Assembly (NCBI RefSeq): GCF_003258595.1 | Contig: NZ_QHHQ01000001.1 | Span: 1,550,001 to 1,614,000, forward strand | Length of the DNA stretch: 64,000 nucleotides | Reading direction: 5' to 3' | Source of the DNA: Acuticoccus sediminis | Lineage (GTDB): Bacteria > Pseudomonadota > Alphaproteobacteria > Rhizobiales > Amorphaceae | Shown: piece after piece, positions 36,712-60,640 of the stretch | Layout of the letters: the number at the start of each line of letters is the position of its first letter | Position numbering within the stretch: the stretch's first letter is position 1 | The notes under the pieces: generated by a model | Seen by the model: only the letters and a program-made list of their open reading frames with translations | What the model was told of the DNA's origin: nothing | The model's database searches: none | Position numbers and translations under genes: made by a program

Positions 36712-36750
36712 CGCCCCGCACCGGCCGCCCCCGCCGGCATGGCGGGCCGC

Positions 36751-37175
36751 GATGGACGTCGGGGAGAGGCAGCTCGCCCCGGGAAATGCTGATCGACTGG
36801 CCTCGCCCACGGGCGTAGCGGTCCAGGCAGGCCGGCGGGGACAGGCGGTCCCTCGGGAAATGCCGATCGATTGTCCGTGCCCATGGACGTGGAGGTCCGG
36901 GCAGACCGTCGGGGAGAGGCACGTCGCCCGGGAGATGCCGATCGATTGGCCACTCCCATGGGCGTGCTGGTCAGGGCCGGCCGTCGGGGAAGGCAGGGCC
37001 CTCGGGAAATGCCGATCGATTGGCCGCGCCGATGGGCGTGGAGGTCCGGGCTCGCCGGCGGGGAGAGGCAGGTCGCCGGGAAATGCCGATCGATGGGCCG
37101 CGCCCGCGGGCGTGGAGGTCCGGGCAGGAGGTCGGGGAGAGGCAGGTCGTTCAGGGAAAGCCGACGGATCCGCCG
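36751..37175. repeat. Intergenic array of 74-76 bp tandem repeats
   Basis: A repeated core (GGGAAATGCCGATCGATTGG in the best copies) starts at 36781, 36855, 36930, 37004, 37078 and, degenerate, 37154, giving periods of 74, 75, 74, 74 and 76 bp. Each unit also carries a GCCCATGGGC-like dyad (variants with CA, TG or CG centres), a GTGGAGGTCCGGGC segment, and CGTCGGGGAGAGGCAGGTCG. A partial unit precedes the first core. The period is not a multiple of three, so the array is not coding despite long open frames. It fills most of the 639-bp gap between the convergent SDR and lexA genes. Confidence 0.85.
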
Positions 37176-37350: not shown

Positions 37351-38082
37351 TCAGTAGTGACGGAGGAGGGCGGCGAGCCTGCCCTGGATCTGGACGCGGT
37401 CGGCGCCGAAGATGCGCGTCTCGTACGCCGGGTTCGCAGCCTCGAGCGCGATGGTGTTGCCACGCTTGCGCAGACGCTTGAGGGTCGCTTCCTCGCCGTC
37501 GATCAGGGCGACCACGATGTCGCCGTTCTCGGCGTGGTCCGTCCGCCGCACGACGACGGTGTCACCGTCGTGGATGCCGGCATCGATCATCGAATCGCCC
37601 GTGATCTCCAGCGCGAAGTGCTCGCCGGGGCCGAGCATGTCGGACGGGAGGTGGACGGCGGAGCTCTGCTGCTGGATCGCCTCGATCGGCACGCCGGCGG
37701 CGATGCGGCCCATCATCGGCACGTCGACGATGTCGTAGGCGGTCGTGACAGGGCGCAGCGAAGGGCCCCGCTTCGGCGGGATGGCCGGATCGCGCGGGGC
37801 CGACCCCTCGATGACGGACGGGGAGAAGCCGCGCGGGCGTTGCGGCGGGCTCGACTTCGCGAGCGCGACGTCCGGCAGGCGCAGGACTTCCAGCGCGCGG
37901 GCGCGGTTGGGGAGGCGGCGGATGAAGCCACGCTCCTCCAGCGCGGTTATCAGGCGATGGATGCCGGATTTGGATTTAAGATCGAGCGCATCCTTCATTT
38001 CCTCGAAGGACGGCGGCACACCGGTCGAGCTCATACGCTCATGAATGAACATGAGGAGATCGTACTGCTTCTTCGTCAGCAT
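37351..38082 (-). CDS. lexA: SOS repressor LexA
   Basis: A 243-residue self-cleaving repressor of the SOS response. Seen: N-terminal winged helix (about 1-65; [18 protein letters not shown]), a long linker (about 70-118), the cleavage site Ala129-Gly130 in RIAAGVP, catalytic Ser164 in TGDSMID and Lys202 in EATLKRL. The extended N-terminal domain and linker are usual for alphaproteobacteria. It is autoregulated by the SOS box at 38152-38166. The moeA stop is 122 bp upstream, so it has its own promoter. Confidence 0.95.
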
Positions 38083-38204: not shown

Positions 38205-39383
38205 TCAGAGCGCGATATACCGACATGGACTCCCCGCCGGCACGGGACCTTCATGCGGTTGACGCACGAGCAGAACATCCGAAGCCGCGAGCACGGCTAG
38301 CATCGATGAATCCTGCCGCGATGCTGGCGTAATCGTCGATCCCGATCGCACCGCGCGCATGTGATCGCGGCGAGGGCCGTTCGCCGGGAGGTCGCGGCCG
38401 AGAATCCCCTCGCGCACCTCCGGCAGCGGTGCCGTCACCCCCTGCATCGCCTTCACCAGCGGAACGAGGAACAGGACCGCGCAGACCGCGCCCGATACCG
38501 GGTTGCCCGGCAGGCCGAGAACGAGCGGCCTGGAGGAGAACATCAGCGGCTTGCCCGGCCGCACCGCGACCTTCCAGAAGTCCGGCTCGATGCCGAGGTC
38601 CGAGAGGGCGGGCTTGACCAGGTCGTGGTCGCCGACCGAGGCGCCGCCGAGCGTGACGAGGATGTCCGCCTCGGCGATCCCGGCGGCACAGCGCCGGGCG
38701 ATCTCGGCCCGGTCGTCCGGCGCGATGCCGAGGTCGATCGGGTCCGCGCCGGCCGCGCGCACCGTCGCGGCGAGCGCGGGTGTGATCGAGGCGACGATCT
38801 GGTCGGGACCGGTGGGCGAGCCGGGCGGCACGAGTTCGTCGCCGGTGGCGAGGAAGGCGACGCGGGGCCTGCGGGCGACCGTCAGTTCCGCATGGCCGCC
38901 GGCGCCGGCGAGTGCGATGTGGCGCGGCGCGAGGACGGTGCCGGCCGCCACCAGTGTGTCGCCGGCGGCGAAGTCGAGGCCGAGCGCGCGGATGTGGTCG
39001 TTCGGCTTGACCGTGTCGGTGGCCGTGAGCGCATCGCCGTCGCGCGCTGCGTCCTCCTGGATGAGGATCGCGTCTGCCCCCTCCGGCACCGGGGCGCCGG
39101 TGAAGATGCGGACCGCCTCGCCGTGACCCAGCGGACGCGGGTAGCGCCGCCCGGCCGCGGATTCGCCCACCACCCGGACCGGGCCGGGCATGTCGGCGGT
39201 GCGGACCGCGTAGCCGTCCATCGCGGACGAGGCGAAGGGGGGCTGCGTGCGCATCGAGACGACGTCGACCGTCACGACGCGGCCGGCGGCCTCGGCGAGC
39301 GGTACGGTCTCGGACGGGAGGTGGGGAGCGGCGGCGATCAGGCGGGCCTGCGCCTCGTCGACGTCAATCAAGAGGTGCGCCAC
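38205..39383 (-). CDS. moeA: Molybdopterin molybdenumtransferase MoeA
   Basis: A 392-residue enzyme inserting molybdate into adenylylated molybdopterin. Seen: [12 protein letters not shown] (the conserved MDGYA active-site loop), [31 protein letters not shown] and LPGNPVSG. The GTG at 39383 gives [15 protein letters not shown] and overlaps the end of the trpC-moaC gene by 16 nt, so it is translationally coupled to it. It serves NasA and the CoxL-like protein encoded in this window. Confidence 0.94.
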
Positions 39384-40636
39384 TCGCCCGAGCGGCCGCC
39401 GGACTTTTCCAGGAGCCGCACGCCGCCGATCACCATGCCCCGGTCCATGGCCTTGGCCATGTCGTAGAGCGTCAGGCAGGCGGCGGAGACGGCGGTGAGG
39501 GCCTCCATCTCGACGCCGGTGCGCCCCGTGGTCTTCGCCCGCGCGGTGACGCGGTAGCCGGGCAGCGACGGGTCCGGCTCGAGGTCCACGGACACCGACG
39601 AGAGCGGCAGCGGGTGGCAGAGGGGGATCAGCTCCGAGGTCTTCTTGGCGGCCATGATGCCGGCGATCCGCGCCACGCCGACGACGTCGCCCTTCTTCAC
39701 GTTGCCGGCCTGGATGGCGGCGAGCGTGTCGGGCGCCATCGTGACGGTCCCCTCGGCGACGGCCGTGCGGGTCGTCTCGGCCTTGGCGGAGACGTCCACC
39801 ATCCGGGCCGCGCCGGTGGCGTCGATGTGGGTCAGCGGGTTGCCGAGCAGCGCGCGCGTCGCGGCGGTCACGTCCGCGTGGCGCATGAGGCTCTCGCCGA
39901 TGAGGAAGGCGCTTGCGCCGACGGCCTGCAGGCGCGTGACGTCGGCGTGGGTGGCGATGCCGGATTCGGCGATGAGCAGGCGGTCGGGCGGGACCATCGC
40001 CGCCAGCCGCTCGGTGACGGCGAGGTCGGTCTTGAAGGTCCTGAGGTCGCGGTTGTTGACGCCCATCAGCGGGGAGGGGAGCGCGAGCGCGCGCTCCATG
40101 TCCCGCTCGTCGTGCACCTCGAGGAGCGCGCCCATGCCGAGGGCATGCGCCGCGTCGACGAGGTCGCGCGCTACCGCGTCGTCGACGCCGGTCATGATGA
40201 CGAGGATGCAGTCCGCGCCCCACACGCGCGCCTCGAACACCTGCTCGGGCACGTACATGAAGTCCTTGCGCAGGACCGGCAGGCAGCAGGCCTCCCGCGC
40301 GGCGCTGAGGAACTCAGGCGCGCCCTGGAAGGACGGAGCATCGGTGAGGACCGAGAGGCAGGTCGCGCCGCCGTCGGCGTAGGCGCGGGCGAGGGCGGGC
40401 GGGTCGAAGTCGGGCCGGATCAGGCCCTTGGACGGGCTCGCCTTCTTGATCTCGGCGATGAGGCCCGGACGGCCCGCGGCGGCTGCGGCCCTGAGGGCGC
40501 CGACGAAGTCGCGCGGCGGAGCGGCCGCCTCGGCACGGGCGCGCCAGGAGGCCGAGTCCTCGACGAGGCGCGCGGCGGCGATCTCCTCGCGCTTGTAGGC
40601 CTCGATGCGCGCCAGAATGTCGGGTGCGGCGTCCAT
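39368..40636 (-). CDS. TrpC-MoaC fusion: indole-3-glycerol phosphate synthase / cyclic pyranopterin monophosphate synthase
   Basis: One uninterrupted 422-residue frame joins two enzymes of unrelated pathways. Residues 1 to about 264 are TrpC (tryptophan synthesis): catalytic [11 protein letters not shown] at 61-71, VLRKDF, NNRDL, ESGI, IGESLM. Residues about 268-422 are MoaC (molybdenum cofactor): [58 protein letters not shown]. In related bacteria these are adjacent separate genes; here TrpC's last helix (ATRALLGNP) runs into THID without stop or new ATG. Internal GTG or ATG codons near residues 251-256 could still start a separate MoaC. Motifs of both halves look intact. moeA overlaps its 3' end. 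Confidence 0.9.
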
Positions 40637-40652
40637 GACGTCGGGGAAACTC

Positions 40653-41681
40653 CTATTTCGCGGTCGCGGCGGCGTTCGAGACCGACACCAGCGCGTCGAG
40701 CCGCGCCGCGGCCGAGCCGTCGTCCAGGAGGTTCTGGGCCAGCTTCACGCCCTCCGCAAGCGTTTCCACCTTCTGCGCGACGACGAGCGCGCCGGCCGCG
40801 TTGAGGCAGGCGATGTCACGGTAGGCGCTCGGCTTGCCGGCGAGCACGTCGCGCAGCGCGGCCGCATTGTACGCACCGTCGCCGCCGATGAGGTCGGCCG
40901 GGGCCGCGCGGGGCAGGCCGGCGTCCTCGGGCGTGACGGTGAAGGTGGTGACCTTGCCGTTCTCGACGGCGGCCACCTCGGTCTCGGCCGTGGTCGTCAT
41001 CTCGTCGAGGCCGTCGGTCCCGTGGACCACCCACACGCGCTCGGCGCCCAGGGTGGCGAGCGCCTCGGCGAGCGGGCGCACCCACTCGGACGAGTAGACG
41101 CCGAGGAGCTGGCGCTTGACGCCCGCCGGGTTCGACATCGGGCCGAGGAGGTTGAAGATCGTGCGCGTGCCGAGCTCCACGCGGGCCGGGCCGACGTGCT
41201 TCATGGCCGCATGGTGCGCCGGGGCGAACATGAAGCCGATGCCGGCGGTGCGGATGCAGGCGGCGATCCCCTCCGGCGAGAGGTCGAGCGTGATGCCGAG
41301 CGCGGAGAGGCAGTCGGCCGCACCCGACCTGGAGGAGAGCGCCCGGTTGCCGTGCTTGGCGACCGGCACCCCCGCCGCCGCGACGATGAACGCGGCGCAG
41401 GTGGAGACGTTGTAGGTTCCCGATGCGTCGCCGCCGGTGCCGACGATGTCGATCGCGTCGGCCGGGGCTTGCACCGGCAGCATGCGGGCGCGCATCACGT
41501 CGACGGCGCCGGCGATCTCGTCCACCGTCTCGCCCCGGACGCGCAGCGCCATGAGGAGGCCGCCGATCTGGGCCGGCGTCGCCTCGCCCGACATCAGGAC
41601 GTCGAACGCGGCGGACGCTTCGGCGCGCGTCAGGGGCTCCCCCGACGCGGCCTTCGCGATGAACGTCTTGAGGTTAGCCAC
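40653..41681 (-). CDS. trpD: Anthranilate phosphoribosyltransferase TrpD
   Basis: A 342-residue enzyme of tryptophan synthesis. Seen: [17 protein letters not shown] (the PRPP-binding GTGGD motif), [40 protein letters not shown] and [10 protein letters not shown]. It starts with GTG at 41681, with GGGGGGAT upstream, and is followed after 16 nt by the trpC-moaC fusion. trpG, often upstream in related genomes, is absent here. Confidence 0.95.
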
Positions 41682-41718
41682 CGAAGCGGATCCCCCCGGT
41701 CTCGAGCAGGTCGGTCAT
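41674..41718 (-). other. 14-codon ORF coupling ppiD to trpD
   Basis: An ATG at 41718 overlaps the ppiD stop (ATGA) and opens a 14-codon frame ending TAA at 41674, inside the first codons of trpD. It encodes no Trp, so it is not a classical trp attenuator leader. It may be a chance frame or may carry ribosomes into the GTG-started trpD. Confidence 0.25.
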
Positions 41719-43601
41719 CAGCCCTGTCCCTGGCCCACGCCGGTGAGCTGGTTGAGGATCTGCTGGTTCACCGTCGCGCCGACGTCGGACTGCCAAGCGT
41801 TGAGGAAGTCGAACAGCACCGCGTTGGCCATGCCCTCGTCGAGCTGCTGGCGCACGCGCGACAGCCCCTGATCCTCCACGAAGAAGGCCGGCTCGGTGAC
41901 GTCGGTCACCTGGAAGACGATCCGCGTGTTGCCGTCCGGCACCGATGCGCCGTGGCCGCGCGGCCCCTCGAACGCCGCCGCGGCGACCGCGCGGGGCATG
42001 CCTTCGGGAGCGGCGCTGAAGGTGAACGGCGCGGACTGGGCGACCTCCGCCCCGTACTGCGCGGCGACGTCGGCGATCGGCGTGCCGGAGTTGACGGCCT
42101 CGACCGCGGCGGTCGCCATCTCGTCGAGCTGCTTGGAGCGCTGGGCTTCGGTCCAGGCGAGGAGCACGTCGCCCTGCGCTTCCTCGAAGGGCAGGATGTC
42201 GGCCTCGATGATCGTATCGGTCTGGACCCAGATGGTGGCGTCGCCATCCTCGACGGGCGCGGGGTCGGCACCGGCCTCGGCGGCGAAGGCCGCGTTCAGC
42301 ACGGCTTCGCGGCCGGGGATGTCGACGGTCTCGCCGTTCTCGTCGCGACCGTTGCGGTCGACGGCCTCGACGGTCTGCGTCGGCAGGTCGAACCGGTCGG
42401 CGATCTCGGCGACGGGCGCGCCGCCGGCGACCGCGTCGGTCACGTCGGTCTGCAGCGCGCGGGCCTGGTCGATGGCCTCGTCGAGGGCGAGAGAGGCGCG
42501 GATCTCGTCCTTCACCTCGTCGTACGGCTGCTTGGCGGCGGCCTCGATGTCGTCGACACGGACGAGGGTCGGGCCGAAGCGGCCGTCGACCACGGTCGCC
42601 TTGCGCGCGTCGAGCGAGAAAGCCGCCTCGGCGATGGCCGGGTCGAAGATCGCCGACTTGGCGACGAGGCCGAGGTCGACGTCGGAGCGCTTCTTGCCGA
42701 GCTCGCGCAGGATCGCCGAGAAGGCGGTGCCGCCGTTGATCGCGTCGGCGGCCTTCTGCGCCACGTCCGGATCGTCGAGCACCACCTGCTGCACCTCGCG
42801 CCGTTCGGGCGTGCCGTAGGCGCCGTCCGCGTCGTAGGCGCGGCGCACCGCGTCCTCGCTGACGACCTCGGGTTCGGCCAGCGCGTCGGGCGACAGGGTC
42901 ACGATGGAGAAGGACCGGCGCTCGGGAGCGCGGAACTCGTCCTTGTGCTCGTCGTAGAAGGCGCGCAGCTCCTCCTCCGTCGGATCGGGGATCGTCGACA
43001 GGCTGTCGTTGTCGAGGCGGAAGCTCGCGATCTCGCGGGTCTGGTTCGTGAACCGGTTGACGGCCTCGAGGTAGGGGGTCGGCACCGTGAGGCCGCCCAC
43101 GAGGCTGTTGGTCCACATCTCCTGCACCGCCGCCTCGCGCTCGACCTTGAAGAACTCGTTCTCGCTGTAGTTGAAGTTCGCGAGGTAACGGTTGAAGGCG
43201 TTGCGGTCGAAGTTGCCGCCCTCGGGCACGAAGCGCGGGTCGCTGCGGAGCCGCTCGGCGAGCGTGTCGTCGCTGACGTCGATGCCGAGATCGTGCGCCG
43301 CGTCGACCTGCAGCGCGCCCGTCACGAGCGACTGGAGGACGCTGTTGGCGATCCCGAAGGACTGGATCTCCTGCGGGGTGAGGCTTCGGCCGAGCTGCTG
43401 CGTGATCCGCATGGACTGCACGCGCCAGGCCCGCTCGAACTCGCGAGCGGAGACGGGAGTATCGCCGGCACGCGCAACCTCGGTCGGGTTGACCGTGTTT
43501 ACGAAGCCGGAGACACCCCAGACGGCGAAGGAGAGGACAAGGAGCGCGATGAGGAGTTTTGCGAGGGTCCCCTTCGCCCCGCGTCGCATTTCATTCAACA
43601 T
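41718..43601 (-). CDS. ppiD: PpiD/SurA-type periplasmic peptidyl-prolyl isomerase
   Basis: A 627-residue membrane-anchored periplasmic chaperone. Seen: a short N-terminal basic region then one transmembrane segment (about 14-34, [17 protein letters not shown]), a SurA_N-like helical region with [13 protein letters not shown], and a central/late parvulin-like region. The parvulin active-site residues are not obvious, as in many PpiD proteins where that domain is inactive. It assists folding of exported proteins. It is divergent from tpiA over 126 bp and heads the minus-strand run into trpD. Confidence 0.88.
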
Positions 43602-58342: not shown

Positions 58343-60640
58343 ATGGCACAGCGTTCCGGGCGTATCGAAGACGCCCGCTTCATCACCGGCCACGGCCGAT
58401 ACACCGCGGACGTCGCCGACCCGTCGGCTCTGACGGCCGTCTTCGTCCGTTCGCCGGTCGCGGCCGGACGCATCGAGGCGATCGACACGGAGGCGGCCGC
58501 GGCGATGCCGGGCGTGCGCGCCATCGTCACCGCGGCGGCGCTCGCCGAGGCGGGCGTCGGCCCGGTCCAGGCGCCGCTGAACCTGACGGGACCGGACGGC
58601 ACGGTCTGGACCGCGGTGAACCGTCCGCTCCTGGCGAGCGACGTGGTGCGCTATGTCGGCGAGCCGGTGGCGCTGGTCGTCGCCGAGACGCGCGCCGCGG
58701 CGCTCGACGCGGTCGAGGCGGTCGACGTCACCTACGCGGACGCTTCGGCCGTGACGACCGTGACGGACGCGCTCGCGCCCGGCGCGCCGCTCGTCTCGGC
58801 CGACCGGCCGGGCAACGTCGGGTTCGCATGGGCGCACGGCGACCGGACGGCGGCGGACGCGGCGGTCGCGGCCGCCGCGCATCAGGTGCGGCTCACCACC
58901 AACGTCAGCCGCGTCAACGCCGGGGCGATGGAGCCGCGCAACGTCCTCGTCCGGCCGGACGGCGAGCGCTGGGAGGTCTACGTCAGCCATCAGGCGCCGC
59001 AGGCCTTCCGCGGCGCGCTCTCCGGCGCCTTCGGGCTGCCGGCGGAGGCGATCCGGGTCGTCGCCGGCGACGTCGGCGGCTCGTTCGGCATGAAGATGGG
59101 GCCGCTGCGCGAGGAGATGGTGACGTTCTTCGCCGCCCGCTCCCTCGGCGCGGCGGTGCGGTGGATCTCCGACCGGACGGAGGACTTCCTCTCCGACGAG
59201 GCCGGGCGCGACATGCTCATGCACATCGCGCTGGGCGTCGACGCGGACGGGACCTTCACCGGTCTCACCGTGGACATCGAGGCCAACCTCGGCGCCTACG
59301 CCACCGGCCGCTCGCAGCCGCCGATCTTCAATGTCGGCGGGATCGCCGGCGTCTACCGCACGCCGGTGATCGCGGCGACGGTGACCGGCGTCCTCACCAA
59401 CACGGCGCCGGTCTCTGCCTACCGCGGCGCCGGCCGGCCGGAGGCGACGCTCGCGATCGAACGCACCGTGGACAAGGCGGCGCGCGATCTCGGCTTCGAC
59501 CCGGTGGAGCTGCGCCGGCGCAACCTCATCCCGGCCGATCAGATGCCCTGGGAGTCGCCGTTCATCTTCAACTACGACTGCGGCGACTTCCCCAAGGTGC
59601 TCGCCGAGGGCGCGGCCTTCGCCGACGTCGCCGGATTCCCGGAGCGCCGGCGACAGTCCGAGGCGAACGGGAAGCTGCGCGGGCTCGGCATCGCCATGTG
59701 CGTCGAGGCGGCGGGCGGCCCCTACAAGCGCACGTCGATGGACTATTCCGACATCATCGTCGGCGAGGACGGGCGCATCGTCCTCACCGGCGGCGCCTTC
59801 AGCGCGGGCCAGGGGCTCGAGACGGCGATGATCGACCTCGTCTCCGACGCGCTCGGCCTCTCGCCCGAGCAGTTCCGCTACGTCCAGGGCGACACCGACG
59901 AGGTGCCGCAGGGCAAGGGCATGGGCGGCTCGTCGGCGATGATCTCCTGCGGCTCGGCGGCGATGGAGGCCGCGCGCGACCTCATCGCCAAGGCGACCGC
60001 AAAGGCGGCGGACAGGATGGAGGTCTCGGAGGCCGACGTCGAGTACAGCGAGGGCACCTTCCGCGTCGTCGGCACCGACCGCGTGGTCGGCCTCGCCGAG
60101 CTCGGCGCCGACGCGGCCGCCTCGGGCGAGCGCCTCGCCGGCAACGGCGCCTTCAAGCCGGAGGAGGCGACGTTCCCCAACGGCTTCCACGTCTGCGAGG
60201 TGGAGATCGACCCGGACACCGGCGCGACCACCGTCGCCAGCTATGCGGCGGTGGAGGACATCGGCCGCGTCCTCAACGAGCAGCTCGCCTCCGGGCAGAT
60301 CCATGGCGGCGTGGTGCAGGGCCTCGGCCAGATCCTGCAGGAGGACGTGGTCTACTCCCCCGGCGACGGCCAGCTCCTGTCGGCGAGCTTCATGGACTAC
60401 TCGATGCCGCGCGCGGACGACATGCCGACGATCCGCACCGCCTTCTCCAACGTAGAGACGCTCCTCAACCCGCTGCGGGTGAAGGGCGTCGGCGAGGCGG
60501 GTTCGGTGGGCGCCGTCGCGGCGGGGCTCAATGCGGTCAACGACGCGCTCGCCACGCGCGGCGTCGCCTCGTTCGACATGCCGGCGACGCCCGTCCGCGT
60601 GTGGGAGGCGCTCCGCAAGGCATCGCCCGAAGCGGTGTGA
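58343..60640 (+). CDS. Xanthine oxidase-family molybdenum-binding subunit (CoxL-like), orphan
   Basis: A 765-residue large subunit of a molybdenum hydroxylase. Seen: N-terminal GRIEDARFITGHGRYTADV, the Mo-cofactor segments AGDVGGSFGMK, SAYRGAGRPEA (AYRGAGR as in form II CoxL-like enzymes, not the Cys-containing loop of true CO dehydrogenases) and the catalytic Glu in GVGEAGSVGA. The usual medium (FAD) and small ([2Fe-2S]) subunit genes are not adjacent; the SDR lies 57 nt upstream and a secreted protein gene downstream. It must borrow its partners from elsewhere or work differently. It hydroxylates an aldehyde or N-heterocycle. Confidence 0.9.
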   Translation: MAQRSGRIEDARFITGHGRYTADVADPSALTAVFVRSPVAAGRIEAIDTEAAAAMPGVRAIVTAAALAEAGVGPVQAPLNLTGPDGTVWTAVNRPLLASDVVRYVGEPVALVVAETRAAALDAVEAVDVTYADASAVTTVTDALAPGAPLVSADRPGNVGFAWAHGDRTAADAAVAAAAHQVRLTTNVSRVNAGAMEPRNVLVRPDGERWEVYVSHQAPQAFRGALSGAFGLPAEAIRVVAGDVGGSFGMKMGPLREEMVTFFAARSLGAAVRWISDRTEDFLSDEAGRDMLMHIALGVDADGTFTGLTVDIEANLGAYATGRSQPPIFNVGGIAGVYRTPVIAATVTGVLTNTAPVSAYRGAGRPEATLAIERTVDKAARDLGFDPVELRRRNLIPADQMPWESPFIFNYDCGDFPKVLAEGAAFADVAGFPERRRQSEANGKLRGLGIAMCVEAAGGPYKRTSMDYSDIIVGEDGRIVLTGGAFSAGQGLETAMIDLVSDALGLSPEQFRYVQGDTDEVPQGKGMGGSSAMISCGSAAMEAARDLIAKATAKAADRMEVSEADVEYSEGTFRVVGTDRVVGLAELGADAAASGERLAGNGAFKPEEATFPNGFHVCEVEIDPDTGATTVASYAAVEDIGRVLNEQLASGQIHGGVVQGLGQILQEDVVYSPGDGQLLSASFMDYSMPRADDMPTIRTAFSNVETLLNPLRVKGVGEAGSVGAVAAGLNAVNDALATRGVASFDMPATPVRVWEALRKASPEAV

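Follow-up and report, generated by a model that had tools for sequence, protein, structure and literature searches.

Does a single open frame of Acuticoccus sediminis encode two complete enzymes, indole-3-glycerol phosphate synthase (IGPS, TrpC) and cyclic pyranopterin monophosphate synthase (MoaC), whose pathways share to our knowledge no metabolite, and how could the two genes have become one? The frame lies on the minus strand of the 64,000-nucleotide stretch of contig NZ_QHHQ01000001.1 that was analysed (hereafter the window). It starts with ATG, codes for 422 amino acids and ends with a TGA at 39368-39370. Its parts are:

39368..40636, minus strand: trpC-moaC fusion gene, 422 codons plus TGA, stop-free in 8/8 genomes of the genus
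39848..40615, minus strand: TrpC (IGPS) domain, residues 8-263, from PF00218, an IGPS-like model and catalytic positions
39836..39847, minus strand: junction residues 264-267 (L-G-N-P), without stop and without ATG, GTG or TTG
39371..39835, minus strand: MoaC domain, residues 268-422, from TIGR00581 and the alignment to 4pyd

Residues 8-263 cover the Pfam IGPS profile PF00218 from end to end (1-254 of 254; 289.9 bits, E 1.8e-86) and residues 279-414 do the same for the MoaC profile PF01967 (1-136 of 136; E 5.7e-58), which bears out the sequence-only reading that one frame holds a complete TrpC and a complete MoaC. In NCBIfam the TrpC equivalog NF001370 matches residues 6-266 above its curated cut-off, and the moaC model TIGR00581 is matched over its whole length (1-148 of 148) by residues 268-416. 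The TrpC half (residues 4-265) can be aligned with the solved structure 3tsm, and E. coli MoaC (4pyd) matches residues 267-420 through its own residues 3-156. At E <= 0.001 the whole genome (7.76 Mb, 97.25% complete) has a single match for TrpC and a single match for MoaC.

The two halves meet without punctuation. No stop, ATG, GTG or TTG is found between residues 257 and 278 of the fusion gene, and the claim that the join has neither a stop nor a new ATG stands for residues 264-267. The in-frame ATGs at residues 251 and 279 code methionines conserved across the family: among the 178 rows of separate genes in the set compiled for trees, ATG is present at the first position in 177 and at the second in all 178. 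The AlphaFold2 model of the fusion monomer features two confident domains (mean pLDDT 94.2, pTM 0.72). Its last TrpC helix spans residues 256-263 and the next element is a strand starting at 288, with no helix in between; the blocks 261-270 and 271-280, with mean pLDDT of 78 and 69, have the lowest interior confidence. The last TrpC helix had been proposed to run on into MoaC, a continuity that the model contradicts: because the helix ends at 263, the strand begins at 288 and confidence is low across 261-280, the two domains are probably connected by a short flexible piece and not by a continuous helix. A Foldseek search with the model matches IGPS structures and MoaC structures separately, and the match to MoaC 4pyd_C reaches a TM of 0.93 by target length.

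Judging from its sequence, the fused product very likely performs both enzymatic jobs, since it provides the sole TrpC and MoaC matches, keeps the catalytic residues of the two families and has dN below dS in both halves. The seven positions that we take to be catalytic in IGPS (E51, K53, K110, E159, N180, E210 and S211) are all kept in the window protein and in 20/21 fused rows, the exception being L246 of genome G469 with A at one of them. For MoaC (K51, H77, D128, K131 and others, presumed active-site residues), eight of the nine positions tried are identical in 21/21 fused rows. The ninth, R39, falls in a column that varies among separate MoaC proteins too, which indicates that this position had been mislabelled. 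Against each of seven relatives, dN is 0.08-0.22 and dS 0.49-1.16 for the TrpC half, and 0.05-0.28 and 0.44-1.20 for the MoaC half. Averaged over all pairs, dN is 0.26 in the 21 residues around the join, compared to 0.17 in TrpC and 0.22 in MoaC. The cell very likely needs molybdenum cofactor because the genome codes for one MoaE match and 20 MoCoBD_1 (molybdopterin-binding) matches. One of these 20 is the frame at window positions 58343-60640, presumably of the xanthine-dehydrogenase type.

The fusion gene is embedded in a series of genes on the same strand, given here in the order in which they are read on either side of it:

41718..43601, minus strand: gene of a SurA/PpiD-type peptidyl-prolyl isomerase, upstream of trpD (PF13624, PF13145, PF13623)
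40653..41681, minus strand: upstream neighbour, taken to be trpD (anthranilate phosphoribosyltransferase; PF00591 and PF02885)
38205..39371, minus strand: moeA, the next gene after the fusion (MoeA_N, MoCF_biosynth, MoeA_C)
37351..38082, minus strand: open reading frame downstream of moeA, taken to be lexA-like

The minus-strand order is thus isomerase, trpD, trpC-moaC, moeA and lexA-like frame, the name trpD being assumed from the two domains and the context and the name lexA-like from the sequence of that frame. An AGGAG upstream of the fusion frame overlaps the trpD stop codon. At its other end the MoaC stop overlaps the NTG start of moeA as NTGA (TTGA in the window, 39368-39371), an arrangement present in 8/8 genomes of the genus with TTG, GTG or ATG as moeA start. 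Elsewhere in the window, positions 36723-37159, with an SDR-like frame on one side and the lexA-like gene on the other, carry an array of imperfect direct repeats, with five 64-nt copies at spacings of 76, 74, 149 and 74 nt that are 61-80% identical to the first.

Where the two genes are separate they lie remarkably close to each other. In the tree set they are on one strand within 1500 nt in 178/178 separate rows, largely by construction because the rows were required to have both genes on the fetched stretch. A moaC ATG was found in 161 of the 178 rows and the median gap from the trpC stop to this ATG is 3 nt; the genes overlap in 15 of the 161 and are spaced by 0-30 nt in 127. They are in frame in 135/178 separate rows, a proportion raised by searches that favour in-frame pairs. 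The 20 loci from the close-relative search include three in-frame pairs and eight with genes overlapping by 4 nt.

The join is common to the genus. All eight Acuticoccus genomes compared, the window genome counted, have the same stop-free join in one frame, with a single stop-free match covering at least residues 5-421; they include A. yangtzensis, A. mangrovi, A. kalidii and a metagenome-assembled genome labelled Rhodobacteraceae. The proteins of the seven other members are 71-91% identical to the window protein. Alignment of the eight shows gaps only at the extreme amino terminus (L009) and within MoaC (L010), together with carboxyl termini of variable length; there is no gap near the join, where residues 266-267 vary most. 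The window genome (7.76 Mb) is larger than the seven others (4.4-5.6 Mb, rounded).

In most of the relatives compared the two genes are distinct neighbours, as the sequence-only reading had supposed for relatives: only four of 80 named loci of relatives are fused, all four belonging to the genus set, and 76 are not. Both genomes of genus g2 from the same family (G008 and G009) also have separate genes, with a TrpC tail of ~12 residues, a TAG stop and a new MoaC ATG. Between the TrpC and MoaC parts G008 has 19 and G009 17 codons more than the fusion, and tail, stop codon and start of MoaC are all absent in Acuticoccus.

The search for further fusions took in relatives (61 genomes, 60 of which gave a match), the order (397 genomes, 388 matching), the class (385, 291 matching) and the phylum (398, 380 matching). 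These sets overlap, and the numbers of fusions are at least those given here, above all for long linkers. In genus g34 (family f33) 7/8 genomes have both parts fused in one frame, joined by an acidic linker of 95-139 residues, and in the eighth (G216) the frame is open past the linker to the contig end. Genus g221 has the fusion in 3/3 genomes. Genome G160 is fused and the other genome compared in its genus, G276, has separate genes. Genome G787 (L222) is fused while a stop is present in 7/7 of the remaining genomes of genus g362. It has TGG at the position where the six congeners compared read TGA (five) or TAA (one); the sequence around this codon is identical in two of the six, and G787 retains the ATG of MoaC. 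Such a junction may be a snapshot of how fusions of this type begin. Genome G469 (L246), which is 67% complete, is fused as well and has likewise retained an ATG where MoaC begins. The single-genome cases G787 and G469 could be errors, or their MoaC could still be started separately. The proposal that the fusion originated by loss of a stop between packed neighbours is supported, with G787 as the illustration; in Acuticoccus more than a stop has gone, the TrpC tail and the MoaC start being absent also.

Among the phylum-search matches listed, a stop-free match spanning both parts is found in the window genome only, and none of them is a fusion outside Alphaproteobacteria. Long open frames were also considered as candidates for further fusions. 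From three such regions in one set only G041 is fused; 18 others, not counting G160 and a G037 repeat, are all unfused, and so are 19 besides G469, five of which (L203, L209, L210, L213 and L214) have no MoaC match and are uninformative. L150, which had been flagged as a fusion, is unfused: its frame extends from stop to stop, contains ~350 residues without homology and has a separate ATG for MoaC. In L150/L168 (genome G374) TrpC apparently leaves the frame near its end and the stop-to-stop frame reaches MoaC. Plasmids gave 125 records with a match, and in eight of them a single place covers >=80% of the query. In three of the eight, trpC and moaC are annotated there as two genes; in the others the matched place carries no annotation.

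How many times the fusion arose was estimated from trees of the TrpC and MoaC parts. In a quick tree of 199 rows, calculated with the join columns removed, the 21 fused rows need six changes, all six forced by starred branches; this tree gave long-branch warnings. Its rows leave aside repeat loci, L150, L168, L169 and the later loci L247-L260, as well as ten loci with too little of both genes (L018, L020, L109, L164, L203, L209, L210, L213, L214 and L235). In a careful tree of 49 rows the 14 fused rows need five changes, four of them forced, and five to six across bootstraps. There G160, g221 and G787 each group with unfused relatives from the same genus or family, and L246 is a long branch whose placement is unsure. 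The linkers are wholly different, with two residues or so in Acuticoccus versus about 95-139 in g34. Going by these sequences, joins of this kind appear to have formed on several occasions among related bacteria.

The reading that we prefer, with a probability of roughly 0.8, is that a deletion between operon neighbours gave a two-domain enzyme with independent halves, in which the join is tolerated, and that comparable events recurred elsewhere. trpC and moaC are neighbours in an operon and often nearly touch in Alphaproteobacteria. In the Acuticoccus ancestor, provided that it shared the layout of G008 and G009, a small deletion would have removed what these two have between the parts (TrpC tail, stop codon and start of MoaC), leaving one frame. 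Its product would be a two-domain protein whose TrpC barrel and MoaC fold independently, with their flexible ends joined, each acting in its own pathway. MoaC assembles as a hexamer, and the fused MoaC would presumably still assemble and carry TrpC along; the hexamer bearing six TrpC domains that the sequence-only reading put forward may be the form it takes. The fusion would be kept since the cell needs both activities and neither gene was found a second time, while the join itself would probably be near-neutral and have become fixed since both ends tolerate extension. Similar accidents would have happened several more times, most likely by stop losses or deletions recurring where genes of the operon almost touch, and would be tolerated because the joined ends are flexible.

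It is unlikely that the join was instead selected, either because the MoaC oligomer serves as scaffold or stabiliser of TrpC or because supply of the two enzymes at a 1:1 ratio matters. The persistence of the fusion across Acuticoccus, g221 and g34 (the last with one genome cut by the contig end), together with the five to six changes counted in the tree, is what such selection could produce. So is a feature of the g34 linker, which is gap-rich and divergent save for one stretch of ~14 residues, [DN][DN]F[EQ].A[IV].ELGA[LM]I, kept in 8/8 loci (L158-L165). A looser form of this motif is present in none of the other loci compared, nor in the window, and its conservation exceeds that in 300/300 shuffles, which ignore shared ancestry. 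In the predicted structure of L163, built from a 21-row alignment (mean pLDDT 77.9, pTM 0.53), the motif forms a helix at 320-331, the only one in the linker, which elsewhere is mostly below pLDDT 50. The linker has no match in the PDB or NCBIfam (both up to E 1), and none in Pfam lies over it. Against selection, the two pathways are not known to have a metabolite in common. Recurrence alone is no proof of selection because the clades are few, their linkers are unlike in length and sequence, and genes that nearly touch are easily fused. A tolerated join is favoured over a selected one, with the qualification that near-neutrality is itself deduced and that recurrence could equally mean selection. 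The more elaborate idea of a convergent selected trait, in which the MoaC oligomer would be a carrier that concentrates or stabilises TrpC, the g34 linker helix would dock a further partner and the two pathways would be physically tied, is doubtful.

A separate MoaC might also be produced from the fused gene if translation started internally at ATG251, which precedes the last TrpC helix, or at ATG279, giving a mixture of fused and free MoaC. Both codons occur in 8/8 Acuticoccus genes, and the predicted pairing of the ribosome site at M279, with averages of -4.38 in the genus and of -5.78 for 13 other fused rows, is near to or stronger than the average of -4.66 at the 161 apparent MoaC starts of separate rows; the retained MoaC ATG of G787 and G469 points in the same direction. 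These methionines are, however, those conserved across the family in separate genes, and pairing in the genus does not stand out from that in separate rows at either position (M251, -3.80 versus -3.55, p 0.18; M279, -4.38 versus -4.10, p 0.86), with a score that barely separates known starts from the M251 and M279 sites. A start at ATG279 would moreover lose the first residues of MoaC. Internal initiation is quite improbable; cleavage of the fused product may be another way by which the two enzymes come apart. The forced 1:1 expression of the two enzymes advanced in the sequence-only reading agrees with the lack of a visible start at the join, and holds only if no internal start is used, a point on which the start score discriminates poorly.

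Spread of one old fusion by horizontal transfer of the joined gene is very improbable. A single origin for Acuticoccus and the long-linker genus g34 is not rejected by the AU test (p-AU 0.104), nor is a grouping of Acuticoccus with its family member g2, which the TrpC and MoaC tree does not recover (p-AU 0.407). Against transfer, a single clade for all 14 fused rows is rejected (p-AU 1.1e-6, in a set that includes the long branch L246), as is a group of Acuticoccus with G160 (p-AU 5e-4), and both the position of G160, g221 and G787 beside unfused kin and the differences between linkers point to separate events. Finally, a sequencing or assembly error that joined two frames, or hid a TrpC stop in the way the sequence-only reading had allowed for, is ruled out for the genus by the presence of the join in 8/8 assemblies with diverged proteins, nothing having been found in its favour in Acuticoccus while the single-genome cases G787 and G469 could still be errors.

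Fusions of either enzyme with other partners are known. Bifunctional TrpC/TrpF (NF006945; structures 1pii and 7ety) and IGPS/TrpB (NF010375) resemble the Acuticoccus protein in having IGPS as the amino-terminal half of a two-enzyme protein, but there the partner performs another step of tryptophan synthesis while here it is an enzyme of molybdenum-cofactor synthesis. MoaC is likewise fused to another protein in MoaC/MoaB (NF002947), MoaC/MOSC (NF011069) and MoaC/MobA (NF011070); in these three NCBIfam models MoaC is amino-terminal and its partner belongs to molybdenum-cofactor biology, whereas in Acuticoccus MoaC is carboxyl-terminal and the partner is unrelated. The window protein falls short of the TrpC/TrpF model (243.1 versus a cut-off of 380 bits) and of the MoaC/MoaB model (191.6 versus 285 bits), and lies below the cut-offs of the IGPS/TrpB, MoaC/MOSC and MoaC/MobA models too. 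A TrpC/MoaC fusion model is not found among its NCBIfam matches.

In archaea, the accessible part of one report describes MoaC-MoaE, MoaC-MoaB and MoaC-MoaC fusions, where MoaC is joined to another protein as in Acuticoccus, and proposes that frameshifts within conserved syntenic blocks may account for them (PMC11237513). A further parallel comes from the Sargasso Sea metagenome, for which the accessible text reports TrpF-TruA and TrpE-PLPDE_IV fusions, with one accession each, and states that moaC always follows trpC (PMC2395257). These two fusions combine a tryptophan enzyme with a frequent neighbour from outside the pathway, as in Acuticoccus, with different genes; the TrpC-MoaC join is not among the fusions described in that text (PMC2395257). 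In the portions of open-access articles covered, no description of the TrpC-MoaC pair as a fusion was found. TrpC-MoaC appears to add to the known fusions of operon neighbours, and its recurrence raises its interest.

Annotation may name the fusion by one of its halves and call the other pathway incomplete, an outcome to be expected for genomes carrying it. Fusion of domains is usually taken to suggest that their functions are linked (the 'Rosetta stone' argument). Two unrelated enzymes joined repeatedly where their genes nearly touch would offer a good test of fusion that results from operon packing alone.
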